Virus record (IMG/VR): IMGVR_UViG_3300022920_000004
Location: 35,001 to 99,000 of that record
DNA from: a virus
Reading direction: 5' to 3' (one strand)
Length of the DNA stretch: 64,000 nucleotides
The position numbers and the translations under genes are program-made. Below are positions 5,846 through 44,722 of this stretch, piece after piece. Below the pieces are notes generated by a model. The model had not been told where the DNA came from and did no database searches. It worked only from the letters and a program-made list of their open reading frames with translations. Numbering within the stretch: position 1 is the first letter of the stretch; every line of letters begins with the position of its first letter.

Positions 5846-6173
5846 TATACCATTCTATAAATTCAATTATTGCTTTATATGTATTATTAATTTGAGGTAT
5901 GTTATCAATAATTATATTATATTTTTCTAATTCATCTAATTCACAACATATTTCTAAAATTTTACTAATACAAGGCATTAACCAATCCCAAGATTCTTTA
6001 AATCTAAGTGATGTAACATACCAAGTTTCATCTTCCATCTCATCGTAAATAAGGCTATTTAATAAATTTAATTCACTACTTGGCATCCATAATTTAATAT
6101 ATGAATTTTCACATTTTAAATTCATAAAATTAGCTATTAATTCATCACCAGATAATTTTTTCTGAGCTCCCAT
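5832..6173 (-). CDS. Hypothetical protein, 113 aa, paralogue of the downstream 155-aa protein
   Basis: It shares the W..LM...I and TYxAIIxFIxWYN C-terminal pattern with the adjacent 155-aa protein. It is acidic, probably cytoplasmic and of unknown function. It overlaps the uracil-DNA-glycosylase-like gene by 29 nt. Confidence 0.65.
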   Translation of the reverse strand: MGAQKKLSGDELIANFMNLKCENSYIKLWMPSSELNLLNSLIYDEMEDETWYVTSLRFKESWDWLMPCISKILEICCELDELEKYNIIIDNIPQINNTYKAIIEFIEWYNGRK

Positions 6174-6834
6174 TGTTTTCTTCTATTATTTTATTAATAT
6201 CATTAAAATGTGTACAATTCCAATCAATGTTTTTTTTAACAGCATCATTTGGGTTTGTAAATTCTAAAATATAATTATTATTACTATTTATATATTGTTT
6301 AAATGATTGAGCTTGATTACCCCATAAACAGTATATAATACCTGTATTAACCTCGCTAAGAGACTTTAATAAATATTTAATAAAGTAACTCCAATATATA
6401 GAATGACTTCCTTGTTTTCCTCTAATTGCACTTAAAGATGTGTTAATACATAAAACACCTTGTTTAGACCAATTACTTAAACCATAATCCATAAAATATA
6501 AACCATCTTTAACATTATTAGTTATACATTGCTCTATTTTAGAAAGGGGTTCACTTATGTAAACCCCATGTTTTTCTTCATTAGCAAATGCAATACCAAT
6601 ATCTTTATCATTAGCGTAAGGATTATCTCCTAATATAACAACCTTTAATTTATTATAATCAGTATCTGTAAAAGCTTTAAAAATATCCTTTTTTAGAGGA
6701 AATACTTTTTTACCACTTCTATATTCTTCATTAATAAATTTAATAAGTTTATGCATATATTTACTATCTAATAAATCCTGTCTTAATAAACTATACCAAG
6801 TATTAAATACTTGTTTTTGTACATTAAAATTCAT
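6145..6834 (-). CDS. Uracil-DNA glycosylase family 1-like protein with substituted catalytic residues
   Basis: The fold is recognisable from VVILGDNPYA (residues 65-74, matching GQDPYH), GIAFAN with its base-stacking Phe, CINTSLSA with the uracil-contacting Asn (N131), the GSHSIYW segment and LWGNQAQ. At the two catalytic places the residues differ: the water-activating Asp (E. coli D64) is N71, and the C-terminal HPSP His (H187) is N194 in TNPNDA. Y73, which excludes thymine, is kept. It may be inactive, or it may use Asn as family 2 (GINPG) enzymes do. The start overlaps the upstream amidoligase gene by 11 nt. Confidence 0.8.
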   Translation of the reverse strand: MNFNVQKQVFNTWYSLLRQDLLDSKYMHKLIKFINEEYRSGKKVFPLKKDIFKAFTDTDYNKLKVVILGDNPYANDKDIGIAFANEEKHGVYISEPLSKIEQCITNNVKDGLYFMDYGLSNWSKQGVLCINTSLSAIRGKQGSHSIYWSYFIKYLLKSLSEVNTGIIYCLWGNQAQSFKQYINSNNNYILEFTNPNDAVKKNIDWNCTHFNDINKIIEENNGSSEKIIW

Positions 6835-8566
6835 CTTCTATTTCTAAATTTTCAATTAATGCATTTACAACTTCTTCTTCATTATTATGAACTGCTACAG
6901 GTGCAATTGGTGGATTTAAACCTTCTAAAAATATTTCAATATCCCTATTTACAATAGCTTCAACATTATTTCTTCTAATATGTCTTGATGTTTCCCAAGT
7001 AAATTCTTTAATTTCATCTTGAATTTCTTTATTTTTAACAGGAACACTCCAATCTATTCTAGAATATGCAGATATTGCACTTTCATCACCTTTAACATTA
7101 CCTTGACAGTTTTGAGAATAAGTAATATCTTTTCTATCTCTAACATAACTATAAATACAACTGTATAAATTAGATTTATAAGCATTACTAAGATGAATAT
7201 TATTGTAGATGCTTTTTTCTAAAATACTATATAAGTTATTATTTCTAAAAGTTCTTTTATAATTAGACAAAATAGCTGTAGTATTATCTTTAACAAAATT
7301 AATAATACTTCCACACATTACAATATAATTAATTACTTTATTGGCTTCAAATGTAGGTGTATGAATTCTAAATTCAACAGTTTCTTTATTATCAAATATT
7401 AAAGGTAACATATTAGCCCATAAATAACGTGTTTTCACTTGCCACTTCCTATTACCATTTGGGTCTGAAGGATGGGATTTAACATTATCTAATGAATTAT
7501 AATTACCTTTAAAATCAACACCTCCAGATAAATAAGCAAATAAAACATCAAAATTATCAACAATATTTTCATTATTAATAACTTTATCCATTTGACTTAT
7601 TAATTTGTGAGATGGTAATTGTTGAGTATAATCATTTTGTTTAACTCCAAAATTATATTTCTTATATAAAGGAAATAATTCATATACATCATCTTGAATA
7701 TGAACTAAAGTTTTATATAATGCTAAAATAAATTCCATTGTTCTAGGAATACCACCTATATGTAAATGTAATGCACAATTATCATCAAAATCAGTTCTAT
7801 CTTTTAATAATTTACAAGATTCTACTACAGTTTGCAAACCTTTTTTACCAGATAAAGGTATTGTTACATATTCAATACCAGTAATACTACCATCTCTTAA
7901 AGGAATTAATCCTAATGGTTTAGCTAATCTATCAGGAATATTACCTTTAGTAGTTTCAAATTCTAATCCAAAACTTAAACCTTTAATAACATCACCATAT
8001 CTTTCAATATTTCTATTAATTTCAAGATTATTATTGTTGTAATCTTCAGTATAATTACCTATAATATTTTTACAATTATATTCTAAACTTCTTTTATAAG
8101 AAGAGTTAGGTATATGTTTTTTATTAAATGATTTTGCTTGAATACTATTTATATTATAAAATATACCATCTTGTAAACGTTCTCTAAATTTATTAGTATT
8201 TTTAAAAACATCTGACGATAAACTAATAATACAACCAATATTATTATTAACATATACATTTTTAAATTTATTAGGTGTAAAATATCCATAAATTAAATTA
8301 CCATTTATTACATCAACAATACCATTTAATAAATTACAATTATTTTTAACTACATACTCTTCAAGTTCATAGTCATATGTTATATAACCAGTTTCATATC
8401 TATAATATTTATCATTAATATAATAACAATCGCCTGAATCTATTATTTTAACATCTCCTATAATATAATAATCTCCAGATATTCTACGACATTTTGATTT
8501 ATCAATAGAAACTCCATTGATTGTAGTAACCATAACTACTTTTTTTTCTTCTATATTTTCGTTCAT
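6824..8566 (-). CDS. Amidoligase (GCS/glutamine synthetase-like fold), 580 aa
   Basis: Predicted ATP-dependent carboxylate-amine ligase of the Amidoligase_2-type family. It has FGLEFET at 199-205 (metal/ATP-binding Glu residues), IEYVTIPL at 231-238, LHLHIGG at 266-272 and TVEFRIH at 396-402, the order expected for this superfamily. Residues 1-190 form an N-terminal extension rich in Tyr and Asn with a repeat-like Y-rich start. The next gene upstream, 3 nt away, is a class II amidotransferase, and a second amidoligase follows that. The family is known to form amide bonds; the substrate here is unknown. Confidence 0.83.
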   Translation of the reverse strand: MNENIEEKKVVMVTTINGVSIDKSKCRRISGDYYIIGDVKIIDSGDCYYINDKYYRYETGYITYDYELEEYVVKNNCNLLNGIVDVINGNLIYGYFTPNKFKNVYVNNNIGCIISLSSDVFKNTNKFRERLQDGIFYNINSIQAKSFNKKHIPNSSYKRSLEYNCKNIIGNYTEDYNNNNLEINRNIERYGDVIKGLSFGLEFETTKGNIPDRLAKPLGLIPLRDGSITGIEYVTIPLSGKKGLQTVVESCKLLKDRTDFDDNCALHLHIGGIPRTMEFILALYKTLVHIQDDVYELFPLYKKYNFGVKQNDYTQQLPSHKLISQMDKVINNENIVDNFDVLFAYLSGGVDFKGNYNSLDNVKSHPSDPNGNRKWQVKTRYLWANMLPLIFDNKETVEFRIHTPTFEANKVINYIVMCGSIINFVKDNTTAILSNYKRTFRNNNLYSILEKSIYNNIHLSNAYKSNLYSCIYSYVRDRKDITYSQNCQGNVKGDESAISAYSRIDWSVPVKNKEIQDEIKEFTWETSRHIRRNNVEAIVNRDIEIFLEGLNPPIAPVAVHNNEEEVVNALIENLEIEDEF

Positions 8567-8569
8567 TGT

Positions 8570-10414
8570 TTAATTTATTTGTAAAGTTGCTATTTTTTCC
8601 ATTTTAAGTGTTACATTTTTTAATATTTTAATAGAATCCATTGCTATTTTATTATCTCCATATTTCTCTAATTGACTTATGAAAGATGGTAATGAAATAT
8701 AAAAATTTATTAACATTTTATCTAAGTCAGCTCTTACTAAGTCATTAGTAAAATCTATTTGAGGTTTAGTTTCTTCCTTTTTATCATTTAACACTATTGT
8801 CATTAATGCAGTACTTGTTTTCAGTAAATCTTTATCTGAAACTAAATCCTTTTTCTTTTCAGGTTTAAAAGGAATTGTAGTTGCATTTCTAGCTGATTTA
8901 GTTTCTATTAAATTACCGTCTTTTATTTTATAAATTCTATCAGAACCTAACATACAATATATTCCTGTAAATAAAATACCATCTCTCATAATACCTTGAT
9001 TATTATAATGTGGAAATTTTTTTGTTATATCTACAATAGGATGTTTTGCAGCCCAAGATAATCTTTTTATATCAAGTATCATATCTCCATCTATCACAAA
9101 AGTATTTAATTGTGTAAAATCTAAATCAGTTTTAAGTTGAATACCATCAATAAAATAATATAAAGGTGGGTTAGTAATTTCTTTACCATCAATACCATGT
9201 ACAAAAGGTATAAAAGAATGTTGATCTAATTCAAACTCATCTTTTATGAAATCTCCTTGCCAAAATTCTTTATTTACAATATCATAAAATGCATCACTAG
9301 CAGCTTTAGGATCTTTTTCATCTAAAAAGTAATATCCATATCCTTTAACAAAAGTATAAATACCATTTATTAAATGACCATTTCTATAAAATCTAAGTTT
9401 ATTAAAATATACTCTACCATTATAATCATTTATATTTCTAATAGGTTTTTCATCATGAATACTAACTTTTGAAGAATTTTCAGAAGCTTTGAGCTGTTGT
9501 TTAGCTTTTCTAGCAAGTCTTCTAGTTGTAGCACCTCCTGTTATTAAATTTTTAACAGGTTCATGAGTTTTATTAAACTTATTACTATAAATTTGTTTAT
9601 ATTGATAATCATAAGTTTGCGTTGAATTAGATCTATCTACTTTAATTATAACAGCATTATCTACATCACCATCAGTAATTTTATATACTTTATTATGTTC
9701 AAATTCTCCTACATTTTTAATATCAGCACCTATAGCATAAAGTGAATCTTCTATAGAAGAAATATATAAGCTATTTTTAGATTCCTTATAATAATATAAA
9801 GGTCTTTCTTCAATATTTTCAGGAGTGTATCTATTTTTTTTACTTGCCCCATGATAACAATACATTACATTAGGTTCATTAACATTATAAAATATTAATG
9901 CTGCTGCTCCATTATAATCATTTAGTACTTTAAAATCGTTTTCTTGATGAATAATTTCTAATAATATTTCAGAATCAATTTTATTCCTATAAGTGATTAA
10001 TTCTTGTCCATTTTTTAATTCAGAAATGTCTCTAACATTTTTTTCAATACCATAATTTTCAGCAAGAACATCTTCATTATGTAAAGAGCCATTATGTACT
10101 CCAATAAAATCTAAAGTACCATCACCATTACCAAATCCAAATGGATGAGCATTTGTTTCATTATGAGCTCCACCTGTAGCCCATCTTGTATGCCCTATAA
10201 CAATTGGTATTGTTACAGGGTTTATATATTCTCTATTGTCAGCAACAAAATCTCTAAATAGTTTTTGTCCTGCTGTACCGTATTTTATAGTACCATCTAC
10301 AGTAATTCCACAAGAATGTTTACCTCTTGTTTCATTAATTATTCCTAATATATTAAATTTATCTACGTTAAAATCTTTAACGTCTTTACCAGCAAATGCT
10401 ATTACTCCGCACAT
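8570..10414 (-). CDS. Class II glutamine amidotransferase-domain protein, 614 aa
   Basis: The N-terminal Ntn-hydrolase domain (about 1-255) begins MCGVIAF, so Cys2 becomes the nucleophile after Met removal. HTRWATGG at 75-82 and VHNGS at 106-110 complete the GlmS/PurF-type glutaminase signature. The C-terminal 350 residues do not look like a sugar-isomerase (SIS) or asparagine-synthetase domain and I cannot assign them. Known role of the domain: hydrolysing Gln to release ammonia for a partner. Its place between two amidoligases suggests it supplies ammonia or a glutaminyl group to them. Confidence 0.85.
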   Translation of the reverse strand: MCGVIAFAGKDVKDFNVDKFNILGIINETRGKHSCGITVDGTIKYGTAGQKLFRDFVADNREYINPVTIPIVIGHTRWATGGAHNETNAHPFGFGNGDGTLDFIGVHNGSLHNEDVLAENYGIEKNVRDISELKNGQELITYRNKIDSEILLEIIHQENDFKVLNDYNGAAALIFYNVNEPNVMYCYHGASKKNRYTPENIEERPLYYYKESKNSLYISSIEDSLYAIGADIKNVGEFEHNKVYKITDGDVDNAVIIKVDRSNSTQTYDYQYKQIYSNKFNKTHEPVKNLITGGATTRRLARKAKQQLKASENSSKVSIHDEKPIRNINDYNGRVYFNKLRFYRNGHLINGIYTFVKGYGYYFLDEKDPKAASDAFYDIVNKEFWQGDFIKDEFELDQHSFIPFVHGIDGKEITNPPLYYFIDGIQLKTDLDFTQLNTFVIDGDMILDIKRLSWAAKHPIVDITKKFPHYNNQGIMRDGILFTGIYCMLGSDRIYKIKDGNLIETKSARNATTIPFKPEKKKDLVSDKDLLKTSTALMTIVLNDKKEETKPQIDFTNDLVRADLDKMLINFYISLPSFISQLEKYGDNKIAMDSIKILKNVTLKMEKIATLQIN

Positions 10415-10415
10415 A

Positions 10416-11243
10416 TTATATCTTTATTTTTTCTTTTGTTAATATTGTTACTATTTCTTTATTTATTTCTGTATATAATTCTTTAGCTAAATCTACATTA
10501 GATTCATTTATTGCTAATTGTATATTATCACCATACTTTTCAAATATCTCTGATAAATCATTGTTTAAAGCTAATTCTACAGCTTTAATAGTTTCATTAT
10601 AAACCCATTCAATAGTTTCATCAGATTGTATCCAAAAGTTAGATAATATTCTACATTCAACACCAAAATCTTTAAATCTAAATGCCCCTGCTTTACCATA
10701 CATTCTTCTACGTCTTGTATCAGGATCTAACCATACTGAAGGTAAACCTAGTAATATATCAAAAGCTTTAACAACGTTTTCTTGCTTCTCTTGAGTTACA
10801 TTAGGGAAACCTATATGAACGTGCCCTCCAGCACTTCTAAGTCTTCCTTTAGATGCTGGTGGTGTATTAGCTTCACGTTTCCAAACATTAAAATCAGGTT
10901 CGCAACCAAATCTTTTAGCTTGTTCAGTTTTAAGATACTTTTTATCCAACATTGATGAAGCTGAATAATTTAAAGATATATTATTTTTTTCAAACTTCTC
11001 ATTTAAATAATTTTTTACAAGGTTAATGTTATCTTTAAATTCATCCATTGTATTTGATGGTGGAATATTAAACTCCACCATTACGTTATCTTCTTGTACA
11101 CAATGTCCTTTATCTGTAATAGGTAAAGGTTCTTCTTTTGTACCACCAACTAATCCTTCTGCTGATATAATTTGACCATCTTTTTCTAAGAATAATTCTG
11201 GGTCACATCCTAATGTTATTACTGTTCTTTTATTATTTTTCAT
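10416..11243 (-). CDS. Phage-type COOH-NH2 ligase (second GCS-like amidoligase), 275 aa
   Basis: Predicted ATP-dependent amide-bond-forming enzyme. It has GCDPELFL at 12-19, EDNVMVEFNIPP (about 51-62), GGHVHIGF at 139-146 and a basic-aromatic block ending VECRILSNFW, in the order typical of this glutamate-cysteine-ligase-like family. The length is normal. It lies 1 nt upstream of the class II amidotransferase gene, implying co-translation. Its acceptor and donor cannot be read from the sequence. Confidence 0.83.
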   Translation of the reverse strand: MKNNKRTVITLGCDPELFLEKDGQIISAEGLVGGTKEEPLPITDKGHCVQEDNVMVEFNIPPSNTMDEFKDNINLVKNYLNEKFEKNNISLNYSASSMLDKKYLKTEQAKRFGCEPDFNVWKREANTPPASKGRLRSAGGHVHIGFPNVTQEKQENVVKAFDILLGLPSVWLDPDTRRRRMYGKAGAFRFKDFGVECRILSNFWIQSDETIEWVYNETIKAVELALNNDLSEIFEKYGDNIQLAINESNVDLAKELYTEINKEIVTILTKEKIKI

Positions 11244-11256
11244 TTATTTTCTAATT

Positions 11257-11421
11257 TTATTCAATATCTATATTCACTTTGTCAACTAACATCCACTCAC
11301 AACTATCTATAATAAATCCAAATTCTGTTAAAAATTCTAAGATATCATCCCATTCATTTAAATCATAATTTTTTATATAAATTGTATTGTCTGTTTTATC
11401 TAAAATAATTAACTTTTTCAT
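11257..11421 (-). CDS. Small hypothetical protein, 54 aa
   Basis: The frame begins MKKLIILDK and ends at a TAA at 11259-11257. It fills the space between two confident genes on the same strand. Acidic, with a single Cys. No known family. Confidence 0.55.
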   Translation of the reverse strand: MKKLIILDKTDNTIYIKNYDLNEWDDILEFLTEFGFIIDSCEWMLVDKVNIDIE

Positions 11422-11441
11422 TTATTGTTATTTGTTTTTCA

Positions 11442-11822
11442 CTATTTTATTAATTCTAATGCTTTTTGTAAACCTTTTTCTAATGCTTGTTCGTATGTGT
11501 TCCAGCAGCCTGATTCATTAGGTCCTGAAAATTCAGAATCAGCAATATGAGTTCCTCCTCTTTCAGGTGTATAATGCGATTCCCAACAATACCCTGATGC
11601 ATTAGCATATGAGTTTACAATTATTTGATACTCTTCTCTCAACCAACGTTGTAATAAACTTTGTGTTGGTCTTAGTATAACTCTACTTACGTCTATTTGA
11701 GAATCTTCATAAACTAACCATTCATAAAAAAATTCACCATCTTCATAAAAGTAAGACATCCAATCAAATCCTTTTTTCTTAGCTAATTCAGCAACTTCAA
11801 AACTTACTAATTCATCTTTCAT
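11442..11822 (-). CDS. Conserved phage hypothetical protein, 126 aa
   Basis: The layout, with an EVAELAKKKGF start, a TQSLLQRWLREEY segment and a TYEQALEKGLQKAL end, resembles a protein common in phages and prophages of Bacteroidetes and Firmicutes. That resemblance is recalled, not searched. No function is known. It lies inside the amide-chemistry region but need not belong to it. Confidence 0.7.
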   Translation of the reverse strand: MKDELVSFEVAELAKKKGFDWMSYFYEDGEFFYEWLVYEDSQIDVSRVILRPTQSLLQRWLREEYQIIVNSYANASGYCWESHYTPERGGTHIADSEFSGPNESGCWNTYEQALEKGLQKALELIK

Positions 11823-11834
11823 TTTTCTAATTGT

Positions 11835-12275
11835 TTAATTTGAATAATATTTATCAAAAGCATCCATTACTAAATTATAATTATGCTCATTGTAATTAGG
11901 ATATTCTTTTATAAATTCTGAAATTGGTTTTATTTTAATATCTTTTAAAAATTCAAAATTTCTAATTACTATTGCTCCCTTCGTACCTATTATATCTTCA
12001 ATAGCGTAATATTTACTACTACCTCTACCCATTGATGCTATTTCATCATAAGCATCCATTTTATCATAAGATTCACCTAGTATTTTTATAATATTTAAAA
12101 TAGAGAAATCTGAAGTGTAAATGTCACCATACAATATTACACCTTCTTCAATATTTCCTTGCATTTCACCTTCTAATCCAAATAAACTATTGTAATCACA
12201 AGGTTTTTCATTTACTAAAAAACATTTTTGTATATCATCATATTTTAAAGTAACAGATTTTAAATTTTCTATCAT
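11835..12275 (-). CDS. Hypothetical protein, 146 aa
   Basis: The frame is open to an ATG at 12311, but I prefer the ATG at 12275. That ATG shares a base with the stop of the upstream amidotransferase-like gene (TAATG), the usual junction in this genome. No recognised motif; acidic, with several Gly and Tyr residues. Confidence 0.6.
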   Translation of the reverse strand: MIENLKSVTLKYDDIQKCFLVNEKPCDYNSLFGLEGEMQGNIEEGVILYGDIYTSDFSILNIIKILGESYDKMDAYDEIASMGRGSSKYYAIEDIIGTKGAIVIRNFEFLKDIKIKPISEFIKEYPNYNEHNYNLVMDAFDKYYSN

Positions 12276-12955
12276 TACTTGCTTAATAAGTTTCTCACTA
12301 AATCTAAACAATAATTAGAAGTTTCTGTATCACAACTACTAAATTCAGGATGTCCTTGTATAGCTAAAGCATTTGTATTTTTATAATATACAATTTCAGG
12401 TTCTAAAAACTCTCTAGGAATTTCCATTTCTTCATTTCTACCATTTAAATAAGTATCACTTTTAAAATAAGTAGACCAAGCTATTAAATCATAAGCATCT
12501 TTACTTAATTCATTAGGATACATCATTTGATGGTGTGTAGAAGTCATATTTAAAATAAGATTTTCTTTTGTACTAATAGTATGTTCACCTCCATGTCCAT
12601 TAACATGTTGTATTAAACTACCACCAGAAAGTGCTGTTAAAAACTGAGCTCCTCTACAAATTCCAATTTTAACTACAGATTTAGGTAATCTTTCCCAAAT
12701 ACTAACTTCAAAAGCATCTCTTTCTTTATCAATATGTGTAAATTTACCAATGTTTTGTCCATAGTAATCAGGATTAACATCTGAACCACCAGTAAATACG
12801 ACTAAATCAATAGTTTCTTCTTTTTTAACTAATTTACTAAAATCCGTTAAACTATTAATAACTTTAATGTTAAAATCTTTTAATTTTCCTAACCAAGTTA
12901 AATAATCGTTGTTAGAATTTCCTACTATAATAATATTTTTTTTAATTTTTGACAT
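12275..12955 (-). CDS. Class I glutamine amidotransferase-like / peptidase C26 (gamma-glutamyl hydrolase-like), copy 1
   Basis: Predicted Cys hydrolase acting on gamma-glutamyl amide bonds. The 226-aa protein has FTGGSDVNP (54-62), the nucleophile elbow GICRGAQ with C100, THHQ (140-143) and GHPE with H202 and E204, so the Cys-His-Glu triad is complete. This pattern is nearer PuuD-type gamma-Glu-amide hydrolases than synthetase-bound amidotransferases. It lies near the ATP-grasp and cyclotransferase-like genes. A second copy is at 19548-20246. Confidence 0.85.
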   Translation of the reverse strand: MSKIKKNIIIVGNSNNDYLTWLGKLKDFNIKVINSLTDFSKLVKKEETIDLVVFTGGSDVNPDYYGQNIGKFTHIDKERDAFEVSIWERLPKSVVKIGICRGAQFLTALSGGSLIQHVNGHGGEHTISTKENLILNMTSTHHQMMYPNELSKDAYDLIAWSTYFKSDTYLNGRNEEMEIPREFLEPEIVYYKNTNALAIQGHPEFSSCDTETSNYCLDLVRNLLSK

Positions 12956-12966
12956 AATTTTTTATT

Positions 12967-13161
12967 TTATTTATTTTCTTTAATTGATTCTATTATTGTG
13001 TATTGACTTGGGTAACTTGCTACTAATATACGAGGTAAATATTGATTAGAATTTTTTTTATAAAAATCAATTCTAAGATTTTTCATAGTAACTTCATCAG
13101 CTATAACATCCGTACCAAATTTACTACTTGGCATACTTACGTATAATCTATAAGTTTTCAT
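12967..13161 (-). CDS. Small hypothetical protein, 64 aa
   Basis: A basic protein with no recognised motif. It overlaps the end of the ATP-grasp gene by 14 nt and precedes the class I amidotransferase-like gene by 11 nt, so it is part of that unit. Confidence 0.6.
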   Translation of the reverse strand: MKTYRLYVSMPSSKFGTDVIADEVTMKNLRIDFYKKNSNQYLPRILVASYPSQYTIIESIKENK

Positions 13162-14002
13162 ATTTATCTATTAATAATTTAGGTAACTCTTCTATATACT
13201 TTTCAGAGGTTTTATCTCCAAATGAGGCGGCAGAATTTATTTCCACTACTATAAATTTAGGTGCTTCTCTCAAGTCACCGTCTTTATTTTTAGCAGATTG
13301 TATTCTTAAATCTACAGCTCCCATATCTAATCCTACAGCTTTTAAAGCTTTTACAGATTCGTCAATAACTTCATCCCAATTAACTGGTTTATCAAATAAT
13401 TCATTATCTTCTAAAATCCAATTGCAATGAGCATCATTTCTATACCATCTAACGTCTTGAGGAGCATCAGCTTGTAACATCTTTCTACAAGTATAGAAAC
13501 ATCCATTCTTAGAAATATGTAGTCTGTATTCTCTGTTATAGCTGTAATACTTTTCAAAGATATATTTACTTAAATCTTTACCTTCCATCCAAGCTTCTAA
13601 TGATTCTTGAGTATCGTGTTTTTTATTACCAGTTCCTCTACTACCAAATATATGTTTAGATATAATTGGATAAGGTAATTCTTCTATATTTTTATTTTCA
13701 CCAGTAAAGCTCTCCATAAAATTATCACCAGTATTTAAATACCAACCAGCAGTTTTAACTTCATCTTCAGTAAAACAAGTTTTCATTAATAGCTTATTAC
13801 TACTATTTTTAATAGCTTCAACAGTATTTAATTCAATTCTACCATCTGTAAATTCTTTACTACTACCAAATCTAATTACAGATTTAAATGGTAACAATGG
13901 TAATGTTTTATTTTCACGTCTTAATATATCGTGAGAAGGGTGGCGACTTCTAATAGCTGGTCTCCATCTTGTAAATCTATTTCTAATAGGCATGTTGTGC
14001 AA
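13148..14002 (-). CDS. ATP-grasp ligase
   Basis: Predicted ATP-dependent carboxylate-amine ligase of the RimK-like ATP-grasp fold. The 284-aa protein has Lys116 before the glycine-rich loop GSRGTGN (120-126), EYRLHI (158-163), then GAVDLRI (D231) and VVEINSAAS (E254, N256), the expected Mg-ATP ligands in order. The first residues are Arg-rich, and an alternative start lies three codons in (MPIRNRF). It overlaps the cyclotransferase-like gene by 20 nt. It probably ligates an amino acid or peptide; the acceptor is unknown. Confidence 0.83.
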   Translation of the reverse strand: MHNMPIRNRFTRWRPAIRSRHPSHDILRRENKTLPLLPFKSVIRFGSSKEFTDGRIELNTVEAIKNSSNKLLMKTCFTEDEVKTAGWYLNTGDNFMESFTGENKNIEELPYPIISKHIFGSRGTGNKKHDTQESLEAWMEGKDLSKYIFEKYYSYNREYRLHISKNGCFYTCRKMLQADAPQDVRWYRNDAHCNWILEDNELFDKPVNWDEVIDESVKALKAVGLDMGAVDLRIQSAKNKDGDLREAPKFIVVEINSAASFGDKTSEKYIEELPKLLIDKYENL

Positions 14003-14396
14003 GGCTTTTTTTAAACATTAAGTGTTCTTTCCAATCGCCACTTTTTACGATTTCTTGTTTATTTAATGGTGTATTATAAATATAACCAATAGCTTCTCCA
14101 AATGGAGTTTCAATAGTTGTTTTTAAATACATGCTCATAAAAGGATTATCTTCATTAAAACCTTCTAAGTTATCTAATTCAGCTAATGTATGATCATCAA
14201 CTTCATATACTTCCATATTTACAGAAGTGTTACCATTTTCATATAATCCAGGATAACTCCCTAAATCAACTAATGTAAATTCAGGTTCAGTTATAAAAGA
14301 ACCTTTAAATTCACTATCTTCTAAATATATATGATTATGTAATCCTTTCATTAAAGAACCATATACAGCTACTAAATATTTTTTATTGTTGTTCAT
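13983..14396 (-). CDS. Gamma-glutamylcyclotransferase-like (AIG2/GGCT fold) protein
   Basis: Known members release 5-oxoproline from gamma-glutamyl amines or peptides. The 137-aa protein has the family's N-terminal VYGSLMKGLHN loop (11-21), a GSYPGLY segment and LDNLEGF with E78 at the usual catalytic Glu, followed by a Tyr-rich strand. It overlaps the ATP-grasp gene, so making and trimming of a gamma-glutamyl linkage may be coupled. That pairing is inference; the fold call is strong. Confidence 0.83.
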   Translation of the reverse strand: MNNNKKYLVAVYGSLMKGLHNHIYLEDSEFKGSFITEPEFTLVDLGSYPGLYENGNTSVNMEVYEVDDHTLAELDNLEGFNEDNPFMSMYLKTTIETPFGEAIGYIYNTPLNKQEIVKSGDWKEHLMFKKSLAQHAY

Positions 14397-14410
14397 TGTT
14401 TTTAATTGTT

Positions 14411-14551
14411 TTAACTGTAAATTTTAGTTATACCAGCAGATTTAATTCTTTGTTTACGTGGTAAAACTTTGTTATTATTAGTGTACTTACATTTAGGTTC
14501 AAATATCCAAAACATTAAACCTAGTATTATGTTGTATTTAAATTGTATCAT
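14411..14551 (-). CDS. Small hydrophobic-start protein, 46 aa
   Basis: A short frame with an N-terminal hydrophobic stretch (IILGLMFWIF) followed by a basic tail with two Lys/Arg clusters. It could be a small membrane-associated peptide. It fits exactly between the primase stop and the cyclotransferase-like gene, but support is only positional. Confidence 0.4.
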   Translation of the reverse strand: MIQFKYNIILGLMFWIFEPKCKYTNNNKVLPRKQRIKSAGITKIYS

Positions 14552-14552
14552 T

Positions 14553-15596
14553 TTAAAAAGGTAATATATTATTAAGTTCTTGTTCTAAAATTGTAATAGC
14601 TTCTTCTTTATTAGTATTTTTAATTAAATCAGAAAAATCTTTACTTTTATAAATTGTAGGTATAAATACATTTTCAATATCAAATTCTTTTGATAATTTT
14701 TCTGCAAATATTTGTCCCCAATTTTCTTCTTTATCAAAATCATTATCATATAATAAATAAACATTAAAAAATCTATTTTTAAGTTCTGCAATTATATGTG
14801 TTTTAGGTGTTACACTTTCAGCTTGTAAACTAACAGCAGGTATTCCATACACCTCAGTTATAGCCATAACATCTTTTAATGATTTAGTAATTATCAAATG
14901 TGTACCACTTTCAGGTAATTGTTCCCAACCTTGCCAAGTAGAATAATCGTGGTTATTTAACCATTTATATTTTTCATTAAAAGGTTGATATATTTTAAAT
15001 GTTTCTAATCCATCTTTATATTCTGTAAAACAATAAGCATATTTATCAGCTTTTATTGGTTTATCATTTATAAAAATATAATCAATTGGTCTTACATGAT
15101 ATTTATCTAAAGTTTTTTTAGTTACACCAAAATCACTCCAAAATTTAATATCATACATTTTCCAATCTCTAGAACGTTTATTTAAATTAATTGGTCCACC
15201 TTCTTTAATTAAATTAGTTCTATCTTGTTTATCATAAGTAGTTTCGTGTACAACATTATCATATTTTTTATATACAAAATTATTTTGTATATTAAAATCT
15301 ACAATAATCTTAGATAAAGCTTGTATAAAATCAATATTAAATTTCATTTGAACAAACTTTACAAAATCTCCACTACCTTTGACAAAATCTTTAAAACATA
15401 CTTCACCATCTTTACCTATAAAAAATCCAAAGGAAGGGTTAGGGTCTTCTCTTAAAGGGGAATGTAATCCTCCTCTAAGTTCAACATCTTTACCATCCAT
15501 ATATTTTTTATAAACATCAATATCTTGTATATATTCAAGAATACCTTGTTTTGTAACTAATGGTTTATCTAAATATTTTTTATCATTTAAATTCAT
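14553..15596 (-). CDS. DnaG-type DNA primase
   Basis: Makes RNA primers for replication. The N-terminus has HSPLREDPNPSFGFF and VCFKDFVKGSGD, matching the CHC2-type primase core although the zinc Cys residues are largely missing. The C-terminal TOPRIM has TKSLKDVMA, with the usual Glu changed, and LLYDNDFD...NWGQ with the acidic DxD-like cluster. At 347 aa it has no helicase domain, and a separate DnaB-type helicase lies at 21027-22154. Confidence 0.83.
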   Translation of the reverse strand: MNLNDKKYLDKPLVTKQGILEYIQDIDVYKKYMDGKDVELRGGLHSPLREDPNPSFGFFIGKDGEVCFKDFVKGSGDFVKFVQMKFNIDFIQALSKIIVDFNIQNNFVYKKYDNVVHETTYDKQDRTNLIKEGGPINLNKRSRDWKMYDIKFWSDFGVTKKTLDKYHVRPIDYIFINDKPIKADKYAYCFTEYKDGLETFKIYQPFNEKYKWLNNHDYSTWQGWEQLPESGTHLIITKSLKDVMAITEVYGIPAVSLQAESVTPKTHIIAELKNRFFNVYLLYDNDFDKEENWGQIFAEKLSKEFDIENVFIPTIYKSKDFSDLIKNTNKEEAITILEQELNNILPF

Positions 15597-15956
15597 TTAG
15601 TAGTCATTCCATTCTTGACATTCACTAACATCGTAAGATTTAATTTTTTTTCCATTTTTGTCAGCAATTATTAATTCAATATTAGAACCATAATAACCAT
15701 TATTAGAACCATAACCAGGTACTTTTACAGAATGTCCTTTAATTGGTTTTAATTCAATACCATAATCTTCAATTCTATTAAAAAAGTTTTCATCTGTTAA
15801 ATCAAATTCCAAACCTTCAAAATCTTTTATTGTAGAATCACTAAAATCTAAATAATGGTGTTCACAACAATCTTGGTCGTGGTCAGAATATATTTTAAAA
15901 CCATTATCAAATTCAACATCATCACTAGTTACTTTTACTACTTTTAAATATTTCAT
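15597..15956 (-). CDS. Conserved phage hypothetical protein, 119 aa
   Basis: The frame is open 14 codons further upstream, but that extension runs through a terminator hairpin at 15981-16006, so the start is placed at ATG 15956 (MKYLKVVKV). The protein is acidic with a DCCEHHY metal-ligand-like cluster (Cys, His) and a Gly/Tyr-rich loop. Similar proteins are common in phages, which is recalled rather than searched. Function unknown. Confidence 0.65.
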   Translation of the reverse strand: MKYLKVVKVTSDDVEFDNGFKIYSDHDQDCCEHHYLDFSDSTIKDFEGLEFDLTDENFFNRIEDYGIELKPIKGHSVKVPGYGSNNGYYGSNIELIIADKNGKKIKSYDVSECQEWNDY

Positions 15957-15970
15957 ATTTATAATTTTTA

Positions 15971-16006
15971 AGTTTATTAAAATAGGGGCTGTTTCCAACC
16001 CCTATT
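15971..16006 (-). terminator. Intrinsic terminator after the SSB-like gene
   Basis: A perfect 8-bp stem AATAGGGG/CCCCTATT (15981-15988 and 15999-16006) with a 10-nt loop, followed on the minus strand by a short T-rich run. It lies 8 nt past the SSB-like stop codon, which fits a highly expressed gene insulated from those downstream. Confidence 0.75.
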
Positions 16007-16014
16007 AATATTAA

Positions 16015-16557
16015 TTATACCCAATCATCATCAGCTCCTGCATCAGAAGCCTTGGTTGTTGGCGCATCTTGTGCTACTTTTTCAAGTAAATCACCATTTT
16101 TAACTCTCAATCTTGTATTTTCAGTATCTGCTGGTTCAATAAAATCAAAGTATCTAATATTTAAATACTGAGAAGGTTTATAGTTAGCACTTCCGTAAGT
16201 ACAGAAAGTGTTAAATAATTTACCTTCACTATTATCTTTAATTAGCTTCATAATTTTATTCAAAGCATCTTTAGCAGATTCTGCTGGAGGAAACTTATAG
16301 TCTGCTCCTAAAACAGCTCTACCAACGTGTAATGCTCTACTAATAAGAACTTGTTCATTACCTTCGTAATAAAATCCTGCACTTGCAGAAGCACCTTCAC
16401 TATCTGTAAATACCACATTGTAATCTGGAGCATTTACATGTCCATCCAATGACTTTTTTTCTACTTTTATTGTAACATTGTCAACTTTCCCTCCTACACC
16501 GTTATTAAATACTTTAACAACTTTCTCTGCGAAATCTACTCCATTCAAATCGATCAT
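16015..16557 (-). CDS. ssb: Single-stranded DNA-binding protein-like, 180 aa
   Basis: Assigned from position and form: it lies between recombination/replication genes, has a beta-rich middle with many Val, Phe and Tyr, and ends in an acidic tail, DAGADDDWV, like the partner-binding tails of SSBs. No clear OB-fold signature could be confirmed by eye. It has its own terminator downstream, consistent with high expression. Confidence 0.55.
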   Translation of the reverse strand: MIDLNGVDFAEKVVKVFNNGVGGKVDNVTIKVEKKSLDGHVNAPDYNVVFTDSEGASASAGFYYEGNEQVLISRALHVGRAVLGADYKFPPAESAKDALNKIMKLIKDNSEGKLFNTFCTYGSANYKPSQYLNIRYFDFIEPADTENTRLRVKNGDLLEKVAQDAPTTKASDAGADDDWV

Positions 16558-16616
16558 AATCTATCTTCGTTTTTAATTATTATTATTGTTTACTATTAAT
16601 TTTACTATTTTACTTA

Positions 16617-17378
16617 TTAGTCTAAAAATATTTCAGACCAATCTACTTTAATATTGTTATCATCATCAGATTCAATCAATACTACTTTTTTGTTTACTAA
16701 ATGTGCACATCTACCACCGCAAACTAATGATTCAGTTGCTGTAAAGTCTACTATAGTTTGGTTGTCCTTTCTATAGATATAACCTACCGCATCTACTTGA
16801 GAAGCTACAATTCTAGCCATTTGACCAGTTAATGCTAAACCTCTTTCATTCATTTCTTCACCACCTTTACCTACTAATTTCTCTTTCATATGTCCTAAAA
16901 TAATTAGAGTATCACAAATCTCTTCTAATTCATTTAAAACCATACTTAAAGCCATTCTCGTAAATCTGTAACCAGCTCCGTTAGCTAATAAAGTTACATC
17001 ATCTCCATCCCAATTTTTACCCATATTGGTATTTTTATATAATTTATTTGCAAGTGGAAGCACAATATCTTCCAAAGAAGATGCTGTATCTACTGCAATA
17101 TATTTATATAAATAAGTACCACTTTCTTTATTACGGGCTTTAATTGAATTAATAACATCCTTTAATACTATTAAAGGTGATCTATCAGATTCTCTAGCTA
17201 ATTGAAGTACATTTATTTTTAATGCTTCTACAAAATTACTACCATCTTCTAAATCTATAGTTAAACAATTATCTAATTGAGCTGTTGCGACTGTTTTACC
17301 CGTTTTAGGATTACCATAAATGATAATCTTTTTAGGGTTAACTCTACTAGCTTTTTCTTTTTTTATTGGTAATTCCAT
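16617..17378 (-). CDS. Sak4/RecA-like phage recombination ATPase (AAA_24 type)
   Basis: Predicted P-loop ATPase of the phage single-strand annealing group. The 253-aa protein has Walker A at IIYGNPKTGKT, a Walker B-like YIAVDTASSL, and an LIILGHMKEK strand with downstream Gly and Gln positions typical of RecA-like cores. It sits next to the SSB-like gene, which such ATPases use as partner in other phages. The Sak4 label is by resemblance. Confidence 0.75.
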   Translation of the reverse strand: MELPIKKEKASRVNPKKIIIYGNPKTGKTVATAQLDNCLTIDLEDGSNFVEALKINVLQLARESDRSPLIVLKDVINSIKARNKESGTYLYKYIAVDTASSLEDIVLPLANKLYKNTNMGKNWDGDDVTLLANGAGYRFTRMALSMVLNELEEICDTLIILGHMKEKLVGKGGEEMNERGLALTGQMARIVASQVDAVGYIYRKDNQTIVDFTATESLVCGGRCAHLVNKKVVLIESDDDNNIKVDWSEIFLD

Positions 17379-17411
17379 CTTTCATCATCATCCGTCCATC
17401 CACCACTTTAA

Positions 17412-17870
17412 TTAATCTATATAATCTATTATTTTTACTTTACAACTTGGAAATCCTTGATGTTTAAAAGTATTTCTAAAAAAATCTTTTTCTAAATAAT
17501 TCGAGTAAGGAGTAAAACCTCTAAAATTAGTTTTTCTAATATTAGGACAATATCCAAAGTAAAAATATTGTTCAAAAGTTTTTTGATATTTTAATATACT
17601 TTTTATTATTTGTTTAACTGCATGTTTAGGAAAATAATATTTACATACTCTAATAATATCATCTAAACTTCTACTTTTGTCTTTATGACAATGATGCCCT
17701 TCTCTAGAAAATACAGTTGCTTCAGATTCTCCATCTTGATAGTCTAATATCCTTTTTAAGATACTTCTAATACTTTTTGGTACTTCAGTATCTTTTCTAA
17801 ATTTAATCTTTCTACAAGTGTTATAATAATTCTCTAAATCTTCTTTTGTATTTACTTCACTTTTTTTCAT
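17412..17870 (-). CDS. Hypothetical protein, 152 aa, member of a local paralogous family
   Basis: It shares with the 166-aa protein at 20239-20739 the pattern of a Cys near an RS..D motif, a KYYFPK..VKQIIK helix and GYCPNI.K. A third, weaker relative is at 22182-22634. The Cys/His content is compatible with metal binding. No function is known. Confidence 0.65.
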   Translation of the reverse strand: MKKSEVNTKEDLENYYNTCRKIKFRKDTEVPKSIRSILKRILDYQDGESEATVFSREGHHCHKDKSRSLDDIIRVCKYYFPKHAVKQIIKSILKYQKTFEQYFYFGYCPNIRKTNFRGFTPYSNYLEKDFFRNTFKHQGFPSCKVKIIDYID

Positions 17871-17889
17871 TGTTTTAATTTAATTATTA

Positions 17890-19020
17890 TTAACTTGAAT
17901 ATGGTAACATTTCTGCTGGTATTGCTGATTGCTCAGTATGATTAGATAATGTAAAATCATTTATATCAAAATTTTCAAATATATCATTAAATAATATATT
18001 TTCTTTTTCATATTCATCTATTACTTCAATAGCTGAATCACCTATTAATAATTCACATTCACTATTATGCATATTAGTACTTCTACTTAATTGCTCTTTA
18101 ACAGCATCTAAGTGGGGTTCATAAATATGTACATTACTTAAATCACCTATAATACTTTTAGGAATCATATTAGTCATTTTACCTATAATCTGTGCTAAAA
18201 GTGCATAAGAAGCTATATTAAATGGAATTCCTAAATAAGAATCACATGAACGTTGATGCCATTTTAAAGTGAATTGATATTTGGGAGTACTAAAATCCCC
18301 TCTATTCTCTAAAGTTTCATAATAAGGTTGTATTTTAAATCTCTCGTTATCATTTAAAGGTTCAACCAATATCTCAAAAGACCAATGACAAGGTGGTAAA
18401 GCCATATTATCTAATTCAGCAGGATTCCAAGCTGTAACTATATGCTTAGTACCCATAGGATTTTCTTTTAATCCTTTAATAAGATTAGATATTTGGTCTA
18501 ATTTTTTACTAGGAAAATCTTCATCATAAACAGGTAAACCTTCTCCAGCTTCCAGTCCTTGCATATAACCAGCATCTCTTTCCTCAAAAGGAATACTCCA
18601 TTTTCTCCATTGAGCTCCATATATCCTACCCAAATCTCCTTTTATAGTTCCTCTGCCATCTTTAACAGCATCAACAAAATTATCTAATGTAAATGGTGTA
18701 AAATCAGTATTAACTATATTTCCAGAATATTGATTTTTATAATAATTATAAGCATCTTTATTCCAAATATTAATACCATTATCTACAAGATATTTAATAT
18801 TTGTATCTCCTCTTAAAAACCACAAAAGCTCCCCTACAACACCTTTCCAATATAACTTTTTAGTAGTTATAGCAGGAAAACCATCTTTAAAATCATGTTT
18901 AAATGTATAAGATGGTATTTGAATTCTATTTATACCTTTTCTATTAGGATCTTCATACATAAAACCATCATCTAATATTGTCTGTAAAAGATGATGGTAA
19001 GTTTTATCTATAACGCTCAT
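17890..19020 (-). CDS. thyA: Thymidylate synthase
   Basis: Methylates dUMP to dTMP with methylene-tetrahydrofolate. The active-site Cys lies in MALPPCHW, dUMP contacts in QRSCDSYLGIPFN (the Asn of PFN is present, so dUMP rather than dCMP) and in NVHIYEPH, and the GRIYGAQWRKW segment is clear. The Trp and Leu that separate true synthases from hydroxymethylases appear kept (NIWNK, MALPPC). At 376 aa it is longer than E. coli ThyA (264 aa), with an insert before the catalytic region and a C-terminal extension. Confidence 0.93.
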   Translation of the reverse strand: MSVIDKTYHHLLQTILDDGFMYEDPNRKGINRIQIPSYTFKHDFKDGFPAITTKKLYWKGVVGELLWFLRGDTNIKYLVDNGINIWNKDAYNYYKNQYSGNIVNTDFTPFTLDNFVDAVKDGRGTIKGDLGRIYGAQWRKWSIPFEERDAGYMQGLEAGEGLPVYDEDFPSKKLDQISNLIKGLKENPMGTKHIVTAWNPAELDNMALPPCHWSFEILVEPLNDNERFKIQPYYETLENRGDFSTPKYQFTLKWHQRSCDSYLGIPFNIASYALLAQIIGKMTNMIPKSIIGDLSNVHIYEPHLDAVKEQLSRSTNMHNSECELLIGDSAIEVIDEYEKENILFNDIFENFDINDFTLSNHTEQSAIPAEMLPYSS

Positions 19021-19022
19021 GG

Positions 19023-19412
19023 TTATAAATTGTGTTTATTACGATAATTATCTAAATAATCTATTCTGTGTAAAATACTAATTTCTTCTAAGATATCATA
19101 ATTCAATCTATCTCCAAATTTCTCATTAACAACAGGTTCAGAAGGTGTTAAACCTAATTCAATGTCATCAATCATATCATCAATAGAAACTTCATGTTTT
19201 AATCTCATACCTGCTAAAGTACGTTCTCTAATTTCTTGGTTTTTTATAGATGCTTTATTAAAATTATGCATTCTATCTCCCCCACGAGCATATTCTTTTG
19301 CTTTAATTTTAAGAACATTTTTAGTTCTTTCCATTATTTTATCAAAGTATTTATCAAAATCTTCTTGTGATAAATCTTCTAAAAATAAATTATGTAATTT
19401 TTGTTTACTCAT
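19023..19412 (-). CDS. Phage all-alpha protein, 129 aa (DUF1599/Nmad1-like?)
   Basis: A helical acidic/basic protein with KIKAKEYARGGDRMHNF and GMRLKHEVSIDDMI. This reads like a common siphophage protein family sometimes placed near DUF1599 or MazG-like folds. It is directly upstream of thyA (2-nt gap), which suggests a link with nucleotide metabolism. The assignment is tentative. Confidence 0.55.
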   Translation of the reverse strand: MSKQKLHNLFLEDLSQEDFDKYFDKIMERTKNVLKIKAKEYARGGDRMHNFNKASIKNQEIRERTLAGMRLKHEVSIDDMIDDIELGLTPSEPVVNEKFGDRLNYDILEEISILHRIDYLDNYRNKHNL

Positions 19413-19422
19413 AATTATTGTT

Positions 19423-19548
19423 TTAAAATATTATATTTGCTGTTAACATACCACCTAAATAAACTAATATCCAAGCTATGTTCCATTGTAGTCTACTATA
19501 ATGTGTTGTAACATTATGTTCATTATCTTTTAAAGTATACTTTTTCAT
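19423..19548 (-). CDS. Small single-pass membrane peptide, 41 aa
   Basis: The frame starts MKKYTLKDN and has one hydrophobic segment (NIAWILVYLGGMLTANIIF) at the C-terminus, predicting a tail-anchored peptide. Its ATG shares a base with the stop of the upstream amidotransferase-like gene (TAATG), supporting translation. Confidence 0.5.
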   Translation of the reverse strand: MKKYTLKDNEHNVTTHYSRLQWNIAWILVYLGGMLTANIIF

Positions 19549-20246
19549 TACACTAAAATTTTATTAATTTCACTTATTGCAAATTCACAATTAAATTCTT
19601 CAGGATGATATTGAAAAGCAACTATAGGTAAATTTTTATGTTTAAATGCTTCTGTAAAACTAATATAATAATTTTTACCATACTTTTTTTCTGTTAAAAA
19701 CTCAGGTTCTAATAAAGAAGGACATCCTGAAATTACTGGACTAAAGCCAATAGCTTCTAAACCATCTCCTAATTTTTTAGCTGATTGATGATGAATAGTA
19801 TTAATTTTAAAAATACCATTTTCAGTCCATAAATCATCTTTAGTTTCAGATCTTGCACCATAACCTTTAGTTTGATTATGCCCTTTAACATCTTGAAATA
19901 AAGTTCCACCAAAAAAAGCATTTAAAGTTTGAAAACCTCTACAAATACCAACTATAGGTTTATTTGCCATTATAAAAGCAGGAATCATTACTGAATCTAA
20001 ATACTCATATTGAACATTACATCTACCTGTAGAATGATGAGGTATTTCATTATATCTCATTGGATTAATATCAGCACCTCCAGGAATTAATAACATGTCA
20101 CATTGTTCAGCTATTTTTTCTGGGTCATCATATTGTGTAATTAATCTTGGTATACCAAAATTTAATATAAAATTAATATAAGGTGCAGTTTGTTTCATTT
20201 CACCACCAATACTATCTGCGTAAATTCCTATTGTTTTTTTATTCAT
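19548..20246 (-). CDS. Class I glutamine amidotransferase-like / peptidase C26, copy 2
   Basis: The 232-aa protein has IPGGADINP (54-62), the nucleophile elbow GICRGFQ with C102, IHHQ (151-154) and QYHPEE with H214 and E216, so the Cys-His-Glu triad is intact. Like copy 1 at 12275-12955 it resembles gamma-glutamyl-amide hydrolases. Identity between the copies is limited to motifs, so they may act on different bonds. It overlaps the upstream 166-aa gene by 8 nt. Confidence 0.85.
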   Translation of the reverse strand: MNKKTIGIYADSIGGEMKQTAPYINFILNFGIPRLITQYDDPEKIAEQCDMLLIPGGADINPMRYNEIPHHSTGRCNVQYEYLDSVMIPAFIMANKPIVGICRGFQTLNAFFGGTLFQDVKGHNQTKGYGARSETKDDLWTENGIFKINTIHHQSAKKLGDGLEAIGFSPVISGCPSLLEPEFLTEKKYGKNYYISFTEAFKHKNLPIVAFQYHPEEFNCEFAISEINKILV

Positions 20247-34848: not shown

Positions 34849-35037
34849 TTATTTATTAAAATGTAAAGCTACTACTTTACGTTCTCCATTGTATAAGTCA
34901 AGGTACATATTATCATTATTTAAATGAATATCTTTTACGTCACTGACTAATACATTATGTTCTTTTTCTACTTGTGTTAAAATAAATTCTAACATTTTAG
35001 TAGTAACCTCTATTTGTTTTTTACTTTTTAGTGACAT
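34849..35037 (-). CDS. Small hypothetical protein, 62 aa
   Basis: A charged, probably helical protein (KSKKQIEVTTKMLEF) with a strand-rich end. It lies after the terminator that insulates the 123-aa gene, so it may need its own promoter. Function unknown. Confidence 0.5.
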   Translation of the reverse strand: MSLKSKKQIEVTTKMLEFILTQVEKEHNVLVSDVKDIHLNNDNMYLDLYNGERKVVALHFNK

Positions 35038-43019: not shown

Positions 43020-43256
43020 ATGGAAGAAAATAATAGAGGAACGGGTAGAACTACTAGGTTAGTTCAATTTTATATAGATAAGTTATTTACAACAACTGAT
43101 GAGGTTATAATTTATGATCATTATGACCATAAAATAGCTCATAAGTTTTTAACTGATGCTATAATTAGACGTATGCATAATGAAATACTTCTTAGAAGAA
43201 AAGATCTTATTTTAAAAAGAATTAATTCAAATATATTACAATTAACAAAAATATAA
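43020..43256 (+). CDS. Small P-loop-like protein, 78 aa
   Basis: The frame also allows an ATG at 43002, but 43020 (MEENNRGTGR) is preferred as it avoids a 17-nt overlap. It begins NNRGTGRTTRL, a compact P-loop-like motif seen in several phage proteins. It is too small to be a full ATPase. Confidence 0.5.
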   Translation: MEENNRGTGRTTRLVQFYIDKLFTTTDEVIIYDHYDHKIAHKFLTDAIIRRMHNEILLRRKDLILKRINSNILQLTKI

Positions 43257-44722
43257 TGGAAGAAATTATATCAAATAAAGAAGTATTAACTAAATTACTA
43301 GGTGGTATAGATAAACTAGCTAATACAGTTAAAGTAACTTTAGGACCGAGTGGTAATACAGTTATTATAGCTGATGAATATGGTAAACCTTATGCTACTA
43401 AAGATGGTGTATCAGTATCTAACTATATTAATCTTAAAGACCCTGTAGAAAATATAGGTGTTACAATGATTAAAGAAGTAGCTAAGAAGACTGCTGATGA
43501 AGCTGGTGATGGTACTACAACAAGTATTGTATTAGCTCAAGCACTTATAACTAACGGTATTAAGTTTTTAAACGATGGTGGTACTTATAATGATATTAAA
43601 GAAATTTATTCTACATTATTACCAAAAGTATTAAATCTCATTAAAGATGCCTCTACTACAATTACTGCTGATGATATTGTAGATGTAGCTACTGTATCTG
43701 CTAATAATGATCGTGAAATAGGAGAATTAATACAAGTAGCATTTAATCATTCCACAGTAGTTAAAGTTGAAGAAGGTAAAGCTATTAAAGATAGTTTAGA
43801 GTTAATAACAGGTGTAACATATCCTGTAACATACTTTAGTAAGAAGTTTATAACTAATGAAGCTAAAAATACTGCTGAGATTAATGATGCTGCTGTATTA
43901 TTACTTGGTTGTAAGTTAGATAAATTAGATAACTTAAAGAAAGTATTAACTTATTGTAATAAAGAAGAAAAACCACTATTAATAATAACAGAGTTTATTA
44001 GTGATGATGCTTTACATATGCTGGAGACTAATCATATTAATAATGCTTTAAAAATACTGGCAGTTAAAACACCTGGTTACGCTAACTATAGAAATGAGTA
44101 TATAAAAGATTTAAGTGATCTTACTGATAGTATTATTATAGATGATCTTTCTAAAATGGTTGAAGTAGAGCGATTAGGTAGAATTAAAAGTGTAACAGCT
44201 AAATCTAATGAAACGGTATTAATTCCATATGATGATATTGATATTGAGCAAAGAATTACCAACCTCTTTACATTAAGTAAACAACCTAATTTAGGAGGTT
44301 ATGATAAAAAGATTTTATTAGAAAGAATTGATAATCTTAATGGAAAAGTATCTATTATTAAAGTAGGTGCTAAGTCTGAGATTGAAATGAAAGAACGTTA
44401 TGATAGAATTGAAGATGCTGTGTATGCAGTATCATCAGCACTAGAAGAAGGTGTCTTAGAGGGTGGTGGAGTAGCTTTATATAAGATTGCAGACACTTTA
44501 GATATTGACAGTAGTAAATCACTACATTTAATATTACAAGCTCTTAGAGCTCCTAATAAGACTATTAATGAAAATGGTGCTAAAGTTAATCCTTTTATAT
44601 TTGATGATTACACAGTAGTTGATCCTACTAAAGTAACTAGATGTGCTTTAGAAAATGCAGCATCTGTAGCATTAACTATATTAGGAACTAAAGCAGTTGT
44701 ATTAAATGAACATTTATGGTAG
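43256..44722 (+). CDS. GroEL-like chaperonin, 488 aa
   Basis: Predicted phage chaperonin for folding virion proteins. It has KVTLGPSGN (26-34), KDGVSV with D50 (E. coli D52), GDGTTTS with D85, and GGGVA near residue 405, so the ATPase residues are present. At 488 aa it is shorter than E. coli GroEL (548 aa), with a reduced apical domain and no C-terminal GGM tail. Its start overlaps the previous gene's stop. Confidence 0.9.
   Translation: MEEIISNKEVLTKLLGGIDKLANTVKVTLGPSGNTVIIADEYGKPYATKDGVSVSNYINLKDPVENIGVTMIKEVAKKTADEAGDGTTTSIVLAQALITNGIKFLNDGGTYNDIKEIYSTLLPKVLNLIKDASTTITADDIVDVATVSANNDREIGELIQVAFNHSTVVKVEEGKAIKDSLELITGVTYPVTYFSKKFITNEAKNTAEINDAAVLLLGCKLDKLDNLKKVLTYCNKEEKPLLIITEFISDDALHMLETNHINNALKILAVKTPGYANYRNEYIKDLSDLTDSIIIDDLSKMVEVERLGRIKSVTAKSNETVLIPYDDIDIEQRITNLFTLSKQPNLGGYDKKILLERIDNLNGKVSIIKVGAKSEIEMKERYDRIEDAVYAVSSALEEGVLEGGGVALYKIADTLDIDSSKSLHLILQALRAPNKTINENGAKVNPFIFDDYTVVDPTKVTRCALENAASVALTILGTKAVVLNEHLW

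Follow-up and report, generated by a model that had tools for sequence, protein, structure and literature searches.

The window analysed here, a 64,000-nucleotide stretch of DNA that spans positions 35001 to 99000 of an IMG/VR virus record 99 kb long, carries seven intact open reading frames for amide-bond enzymes, all on the minus strand. Six of them lie together within 6.8-14.4 kb, while the seventh, a second copy of a C26 hydrolase, is located 5 kb upstream and is separated from the others by genes for primase, Sak4 and thymidylate synthase (ThyA); a detached second C26 also occurs in two relatives (G001 and G010). All seven reading frames stand at the coordinates given in a preliminary description of this DNA, which placed the set within 13.4 kb. 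Downstream, the cluster is bounded by a uracil-DNA glycosylase (UDG)-like gene (6145..6834, minus strand; phrog_12143 and tblastn to annotated UDGs), which overlaps the first ligase gene by 11 bases, and upstream by a DNA primase gene (14553..15596, minus strand), which stands outside the amide chemistry and is the same neighbour in crAss-like relatives. A variable gene of no assigned function (11442..11822, minus strand; PHROG match to phrog_12005) also lies within the cluster, its product being 37% identical in the nearest relative versus 79-98% for the core genes.

Profile searches against Pfam, PHROG and TIGR placed all seven proteins in the families previously named for them. The gene next to UDG (6824..8566) encodes an Amidoligase_2 protein (PF12224; Pfam E 1e-8, phrog_2443 6e-42), a GCS/glutamine-synthetase-like carboxylate-amine ligase with an N-terminal extension of ~190 residues, whose ExE, HxH and E-F-R pattern, together with weak but consistent fold matches, places it in the GCS/GS superfamily. 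It is followed by a class II (Ntn) glutamine amidotransferase-domain protein (8570..10414; GATase_6, 1.8e-9), in which an N-terminal Cys2 glutaminase, recognisable by its Cys, Arg, Asn-Gly and Asp residues and its fold, is joined to a C-terminal part that sequence searches assigned to no family, and by a second GCS-like enzyme, a phiEco32-like COOH-NH2 ligase type 2 (PF14395, 10416..11243; Pfam 1.9e-8, phrog_3815 3e-81). Further along are a Peptidase C26 hydrolase of the class I GATase fold (copy a, 12275..12955; 1.6e-16), an ATP-grasp ligase with a TTG start (13148..14002) and a gamma-glutamyl(amine) cyclotransferase-like protein (GGACT/AIG2, 13983..14396; 1e-20), which retains Glu78 and scores 75 bits against a Pfam cut-off of 22.8. 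The detached C26 copy b (19548..20246; 2.4e-27) is 25% identical to copy a, and both exceed the Pfam cut-off and carry the Cys-His-Glu triad; paralogue assignment identifies copy a as the one usual in such gene clusters. The ATP-grasp protein resembles RimK/LysX (PHROG 2599, 5e-32; TIGR00768, 9e-10) and has no Pfam match; since it scores 38 bits against the curated TIGR00768 cut-off of 143, it is RimK-like at the superfamily level and is not classed here as a member of the RimK family. No member of the set matched the Mur ligase families, and no PADLOC defence model matched any of the five proteins scanned (Amidoligase_2, class II, PF14395, ATP-grasp and C26 copy a).

The earlier statement that key motifs are kept was borne out, catalytic residues being present in all seven proteins. 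Both GCS-like ligases keep ExE/DGS/HxH/EFR-type residues, with the ExE, DGS, HxH and E-R residues of Amidoligase_2 invariant across 39 relatives; in the class II protein Cys2, Arg77, Asn108-Gly109 and Asp147 are invariant, and C26 copy a shows the GICRG and HPE triad motifs. For neither GCS-like ligase was a convincing sequence relative found among solved structures. The AlphaFold model of Amidoligase_2 is confident (pLDDT 86), and Foldseek gave only weak PDB matches, the best being to GshF, YbdK, glutamine synthetases and Dop and none with E < 0.001, the probability for GshF and YbdK being 0.97-0.99 at E > 0.001. When the whole chain of the class II protein was searched, its first ~260 residues, over which the model is mostly confident, matched GlmS glutaminase (2.3e-12), PurF and EgtC, the last of which hydrolyses gamma-glutamyl amides.

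In comparison with L010, the nearest relative, dN/dS ranges from 0.08 to 0.50 for the seven genes, with C26 copy a at 0.08, values comparable with those of primase and UDG; the cassette is under purifying selection. None of the seven proteins has a transmembrane-like stretch or a signal-like N-terminus, so that they are probably cytoplasmic. As to expression, homologues of the ATP-grasp, glutamine amidotransferase and YtfP/GGCT proteins were detected by mass spectrometry in phage SU10 (PMC4281155); because that preparation was PEG-precipitated and not CsCl-purified, the detection supports expression rather than virion membership.

The source of the window is a crAss-like phage, as indicated by portal, large terminase and major head proteins that match phage families and by replication genes that match crAss-like phages of the Steigviridae. 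Just before the terminase, the window also encodes a GroEL-like chaperonin (43256-44722; PF00118, 3e-47).

Co-occurrence of the cassette genes was assessed in viral loci recruited with the PF14395 ligase, 45 of them flanked by 7 kb or more in both directions; some are near-duplicates, and the figure does not stand for 45 independent events. Amidoligase_2 and the class II protein were present in 45/45, ATP-grasp in 44/45, C26 in 38/45 and GGCT in 35/45, and the first three accompanied the PF14395 ligase together in 44 of the 45. A second sample was drawn through the major head protein and so independently of the cassette. All 18 of its contigs, each 75 kb or longer, carry the PF14395 ligase, Amidoligase_2, the ATP-grasp, the class II protein and C26, and 17/18 carry GGCT, the single exception being truncated by the contig end; most of these contigs have two C26 genes, and in two of them, as in the window, one copy stands apart. 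Since the core parts occur in every capsid-sampled contig, the cassette is fixed in this lineage rather than a sporadic extra, and the near-universal presence of the partners supports the earlier reading of the genes as one functional set. Neither result that the preliminary description had named as speaking against it, fewer than four proteins in the named families or genes that never co-occur in related phages, was observed. Chance proximity of seven unrelated genes, for which it could be said that each family also exists alone in cells, is refuted, because in several groups of phages the genes occur together and keep their order, and retains practically no probability. Beyond the enzymes and replication neighbours no small family is universal in the cassettes, nor was any amino-group carrier or tag gene (LysW-like) found to be common to all of them. 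In individual loci, the ATP-grasp gene of G002 (the contig of L123) contains a single in-frame TAG and the class II genes of G001 and G005 a single in-frame TAA each, for which start-region artefacts, errors or recoding could account. At L052:1992-5393 and L069:440-1288 the PF14395 ligase adjoins a ribonucleotide reductase-clustering gene, the other ligases being absent from the fetched stretch.

The same gene set has been recognised in phages of unrelated groups from about 2009 onwards, and PMC5498523 cites earlier work on it by Iyer and Hardies. A 'peptidoglycan modification cassette' has been published as a hypothesis for RIO-1-like podoviruses, phiEco32, LUZ24, tf, PaP3, 7-11 and CW02, its authors proposing modification of the wall against superinfection (PMC5498523); the same idea is put forward for phiEco32, with reference to Iyer and colleagues 2009, in PMC10580990. 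No biochemical or genetic test of the cassette was found in the literature searched. The window has the defining combination of PF14395 and Amidoligase_2 ligases, ATP-grasp and class II protein in one cluster, and likewise the GGCT and C26 hydrolases of the phage amidoligase cassette. It shares with the podovirus cassettes two amidoligases, ATP-grasp, GGCT, glutamine amidotransferase and adjoining replication genes (PMC5498523), but differs in gene order (GGCT, ATP-grasp, C26, PF14395, class II, Amidoligase_2), in having two C26 copies and longer Amidoligase_2 and class II proteins, and in lacking the separate ~200-aa c14 gene that lies between the two ligases in podoviruses; in profile comparisons c14 resembled neither the N-terminal part of Amidoligase_2 nor the class II protein in its C-terminal part.

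Similar neighbourhoods, which the preliminary description had mentioned as known, also occur in named phages. The crAss-like Cellulophaga phage phi14:2 (Steigviridae) carries five core genes (g037-g041) in the window order between primase and UDG, with identities of 56% for ATP-grasp, 33% for the PF14395 ligase and 38% for Amidoligase_2, and has no C26 in the 41 kb examined. Leptolyngbya phage Lbo-JY46 has all component families and C26 proteins matching both window copies, but the gene order differs, the ATP-grasp and class II proteins are larger, another C26-like match, the third, lies further on, and NAD-salvage genes (annotated PncB and PrsA) stand beside the cassette. The families are also found in crAss-like cr108_1, Pseudomonas phage tf, phiEco32 and zobellivirus T4S1, and the two unassigned genes that cr108_1 and tf each carry in or beside the cassette had no Pfam match above cut-off. 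In total, tblastn with the PF14395 ligase matched 313 phage records. The cassette as such is already known from phages and stands here in a new lineage context, together with the apparently new slot swap described below; it spans phages of very different hosts and is fixed in this crAss-like lineage. Some neighbouring genes may be recorded here. In phiEco32, phi32_gp79 (L006:22602-22850), which has been described as inhibiting sigma70 transcription of the host (PMC8948821), lies inside the cassette between ATP-grasp and GGCT. At L009, a nicotinamide/nicotinate phosphoribosyltransferase (11630-13231) and a phosphoribosyltransferase-domain protein (13813-14667) possibly form an NAD salvage pair, and a spore-photoproduct-lyase-like radical SAM protein is encoded at L009:10594-11454 (PF20903, 2.7e-22).

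The interval between primase and UDG is occupied differently in sister phages. crAss001 has no PF14395 ligase, and its slot (L181:20583-25805) holds five other genes, encoding a ThiF/E1-like protein (Pfam 8e-16, with matches to PADLOC E1-E2 models and BilD), a protein whose JAB match is weak and below threshold, and three proteins of no assigned function; the same arrangement is seen in cr128_1 (L182:4212-8968). In cr116_1 (L183:4830-8986) the slot holds genes that the record annotates as rIIA/rIIB-like, one of them with a HATPase-like match. Among 26 records tested, the PF14395 ligase and ThiF never occurred together: the ThiF records (crAss001, cr128_1 and Flavobacterium Fpv2) lack the ligase, and the ligase records lack ThiF, the E1 gene of Fpv2 lying ~4 kb beyond UDG and outside the primase-UDG interval. 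The E1 protein was found by tblastn in 78 phage records, mainly of Bacteroides and Flavobacterium phages, neither of which appears among the named records of the PF14395-ligase tally. The Steigviridae slot thus appears to alternate between the amidoligase cassette, an E1/ThiF set with a weak JAB-like member, and rIIA/rIIB-like genes, an apparently new observation in that no description of it was found in the literature searched, which is not proof of absence. To call the cassette simply part of a replication block, as in the preliminary description, is not supported: it does lie in that transcription block, yet in sister phages non-replication kits fill the slot. The constant adjacency of the cassette to primase could nevertheless reflect a replication-linked role. 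The swap suggests from position, over the few crAss-like genera covered, that the cassette is host-directed. Such alternation in one slot gives a concrete reason to seek host-directed covalent modification, for which cultured phages are available on both sides, phi14:2 with the cassette and crAss001 without it.

Taken together, the seven genes are probably a crAss-like version of the known, mobile phage amidoligase cassette, acting on the host through one shared pathway; this judgement covers cassette identity, shared pathway and host direction jointly and excludes the target. The proposed pathway would work in the cytoplasm during takeover, building and trimming amide bonds on a substrate on the host side. 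The class II domain may release ammonia from glutamine or, like EgtC, strip a gamma-glutamyl group. The two GCS-like ligases would use ATP to activate carboxylates, coupling these to ammonia or an amine, and the RimK-like ATP-grasp enzyme would add an amino acid, while the C26 hydrolases and the cyclotransferase may remove gamma-glutamyl protecting groups or surplus adducts. The make-and-remove chemistry suggested earlier is supported; the product may be gamma-glutamyl in nature. Gamma-glutamyl build-and-remove pathways are represented in cells by PuuA/PuuD, BtrJ/BtrG and EgtA/EgtC, in which, as in the cassette, a ligase is paired with a C26, GGCT or Ntn hydrolase; these are separate cellular pathways that share only superfamilies with it.

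For enzymes at work in the cytoplasm, peptidoglycan precursors, proteins and small metabolites are all conceivable substrates, among which sequence alone cannot decide. The single most likely target, tentatively adopted from the published prediction, would be a soluble peptidoglycan precursor peptide, the wall being altered against superinfection; the lack of any Mur ligase match among the seven proteins counts against it. Protein tagging, with amino acids or a primary amide attached to a protein of host or phage by the RimK-like ATP-grasp and the GCS-like ligases and taken off again by C26 and GGCT, is a somewhat doubtful alternative: the nearest solved relatives of the ATP-grasp protein include cyanophycin synthetase, alpha-L-glutamate ligase and RimK/LysX enzymes, the GCS/GS fold includes the Pup enzymes, with Dop among the structural matches of Amidoligase_2, and the E1/ThiF and weak JAB-like proteins in the slot of crAss001 and cr128_1 represent protein isopeptide chemistry, but the cassette has no widely conserved small carrier or tag gene. 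It is rather unlikely, though conceivable, that a soluble metabolite such as a gamma-glutamyl amine or peptide blocks host defence or serves replication, gamma-glutamyl being a temporary protection; the three cellular pathways pair the same enzyme types and EgtC is among the class II structural matches, yet the neighbourhood has no other constant tailoring enzyme. A speculative extension of the slot argument, also held to be unlikely, takes the slot to be a place where covalent kits for host takeover or counter-defence are swapped, whether the amidoligase cassette, an E1/JAB-like set for ubiquitin-type conjugation or rIIA/rIIB; the cassette would then be the non-ubiquitin counterpart, covalently modifying host proteins or signals so as to disarm host immunity or exclusion.

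Hypermodification of phage DNA with an amino acid or amide, a DNA base being one of the targets originally listed, is very improbable. The cassette does lie among replication and nucleotide genes, with thymidylate synthase and uracil-DNA glycosylase near, but bulk modification is disfavoured because the DNA of the cassette-bearing phage tf was cut by five restriction enzymes (RsaI, HpaI, EcoRV, SmaI and HaeIII), cloned and sequenced (PMC3517423), and because the window thymidylate synthase looks canonical, with a FNIAS motif containing the dUMP-type Asn; moreover, none of the cassette genes was recognisable as one for a base hydroxylase or DNA kinase. For tf, DNA modification is largely refuted. 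As a separate observation, the locus L099, binned as an 'archaeon' and considered as a possible argument against peptidoglycan, was rejected, since its phage genes and bacterial-type sigma factor make it look like a misbinned phage contig.
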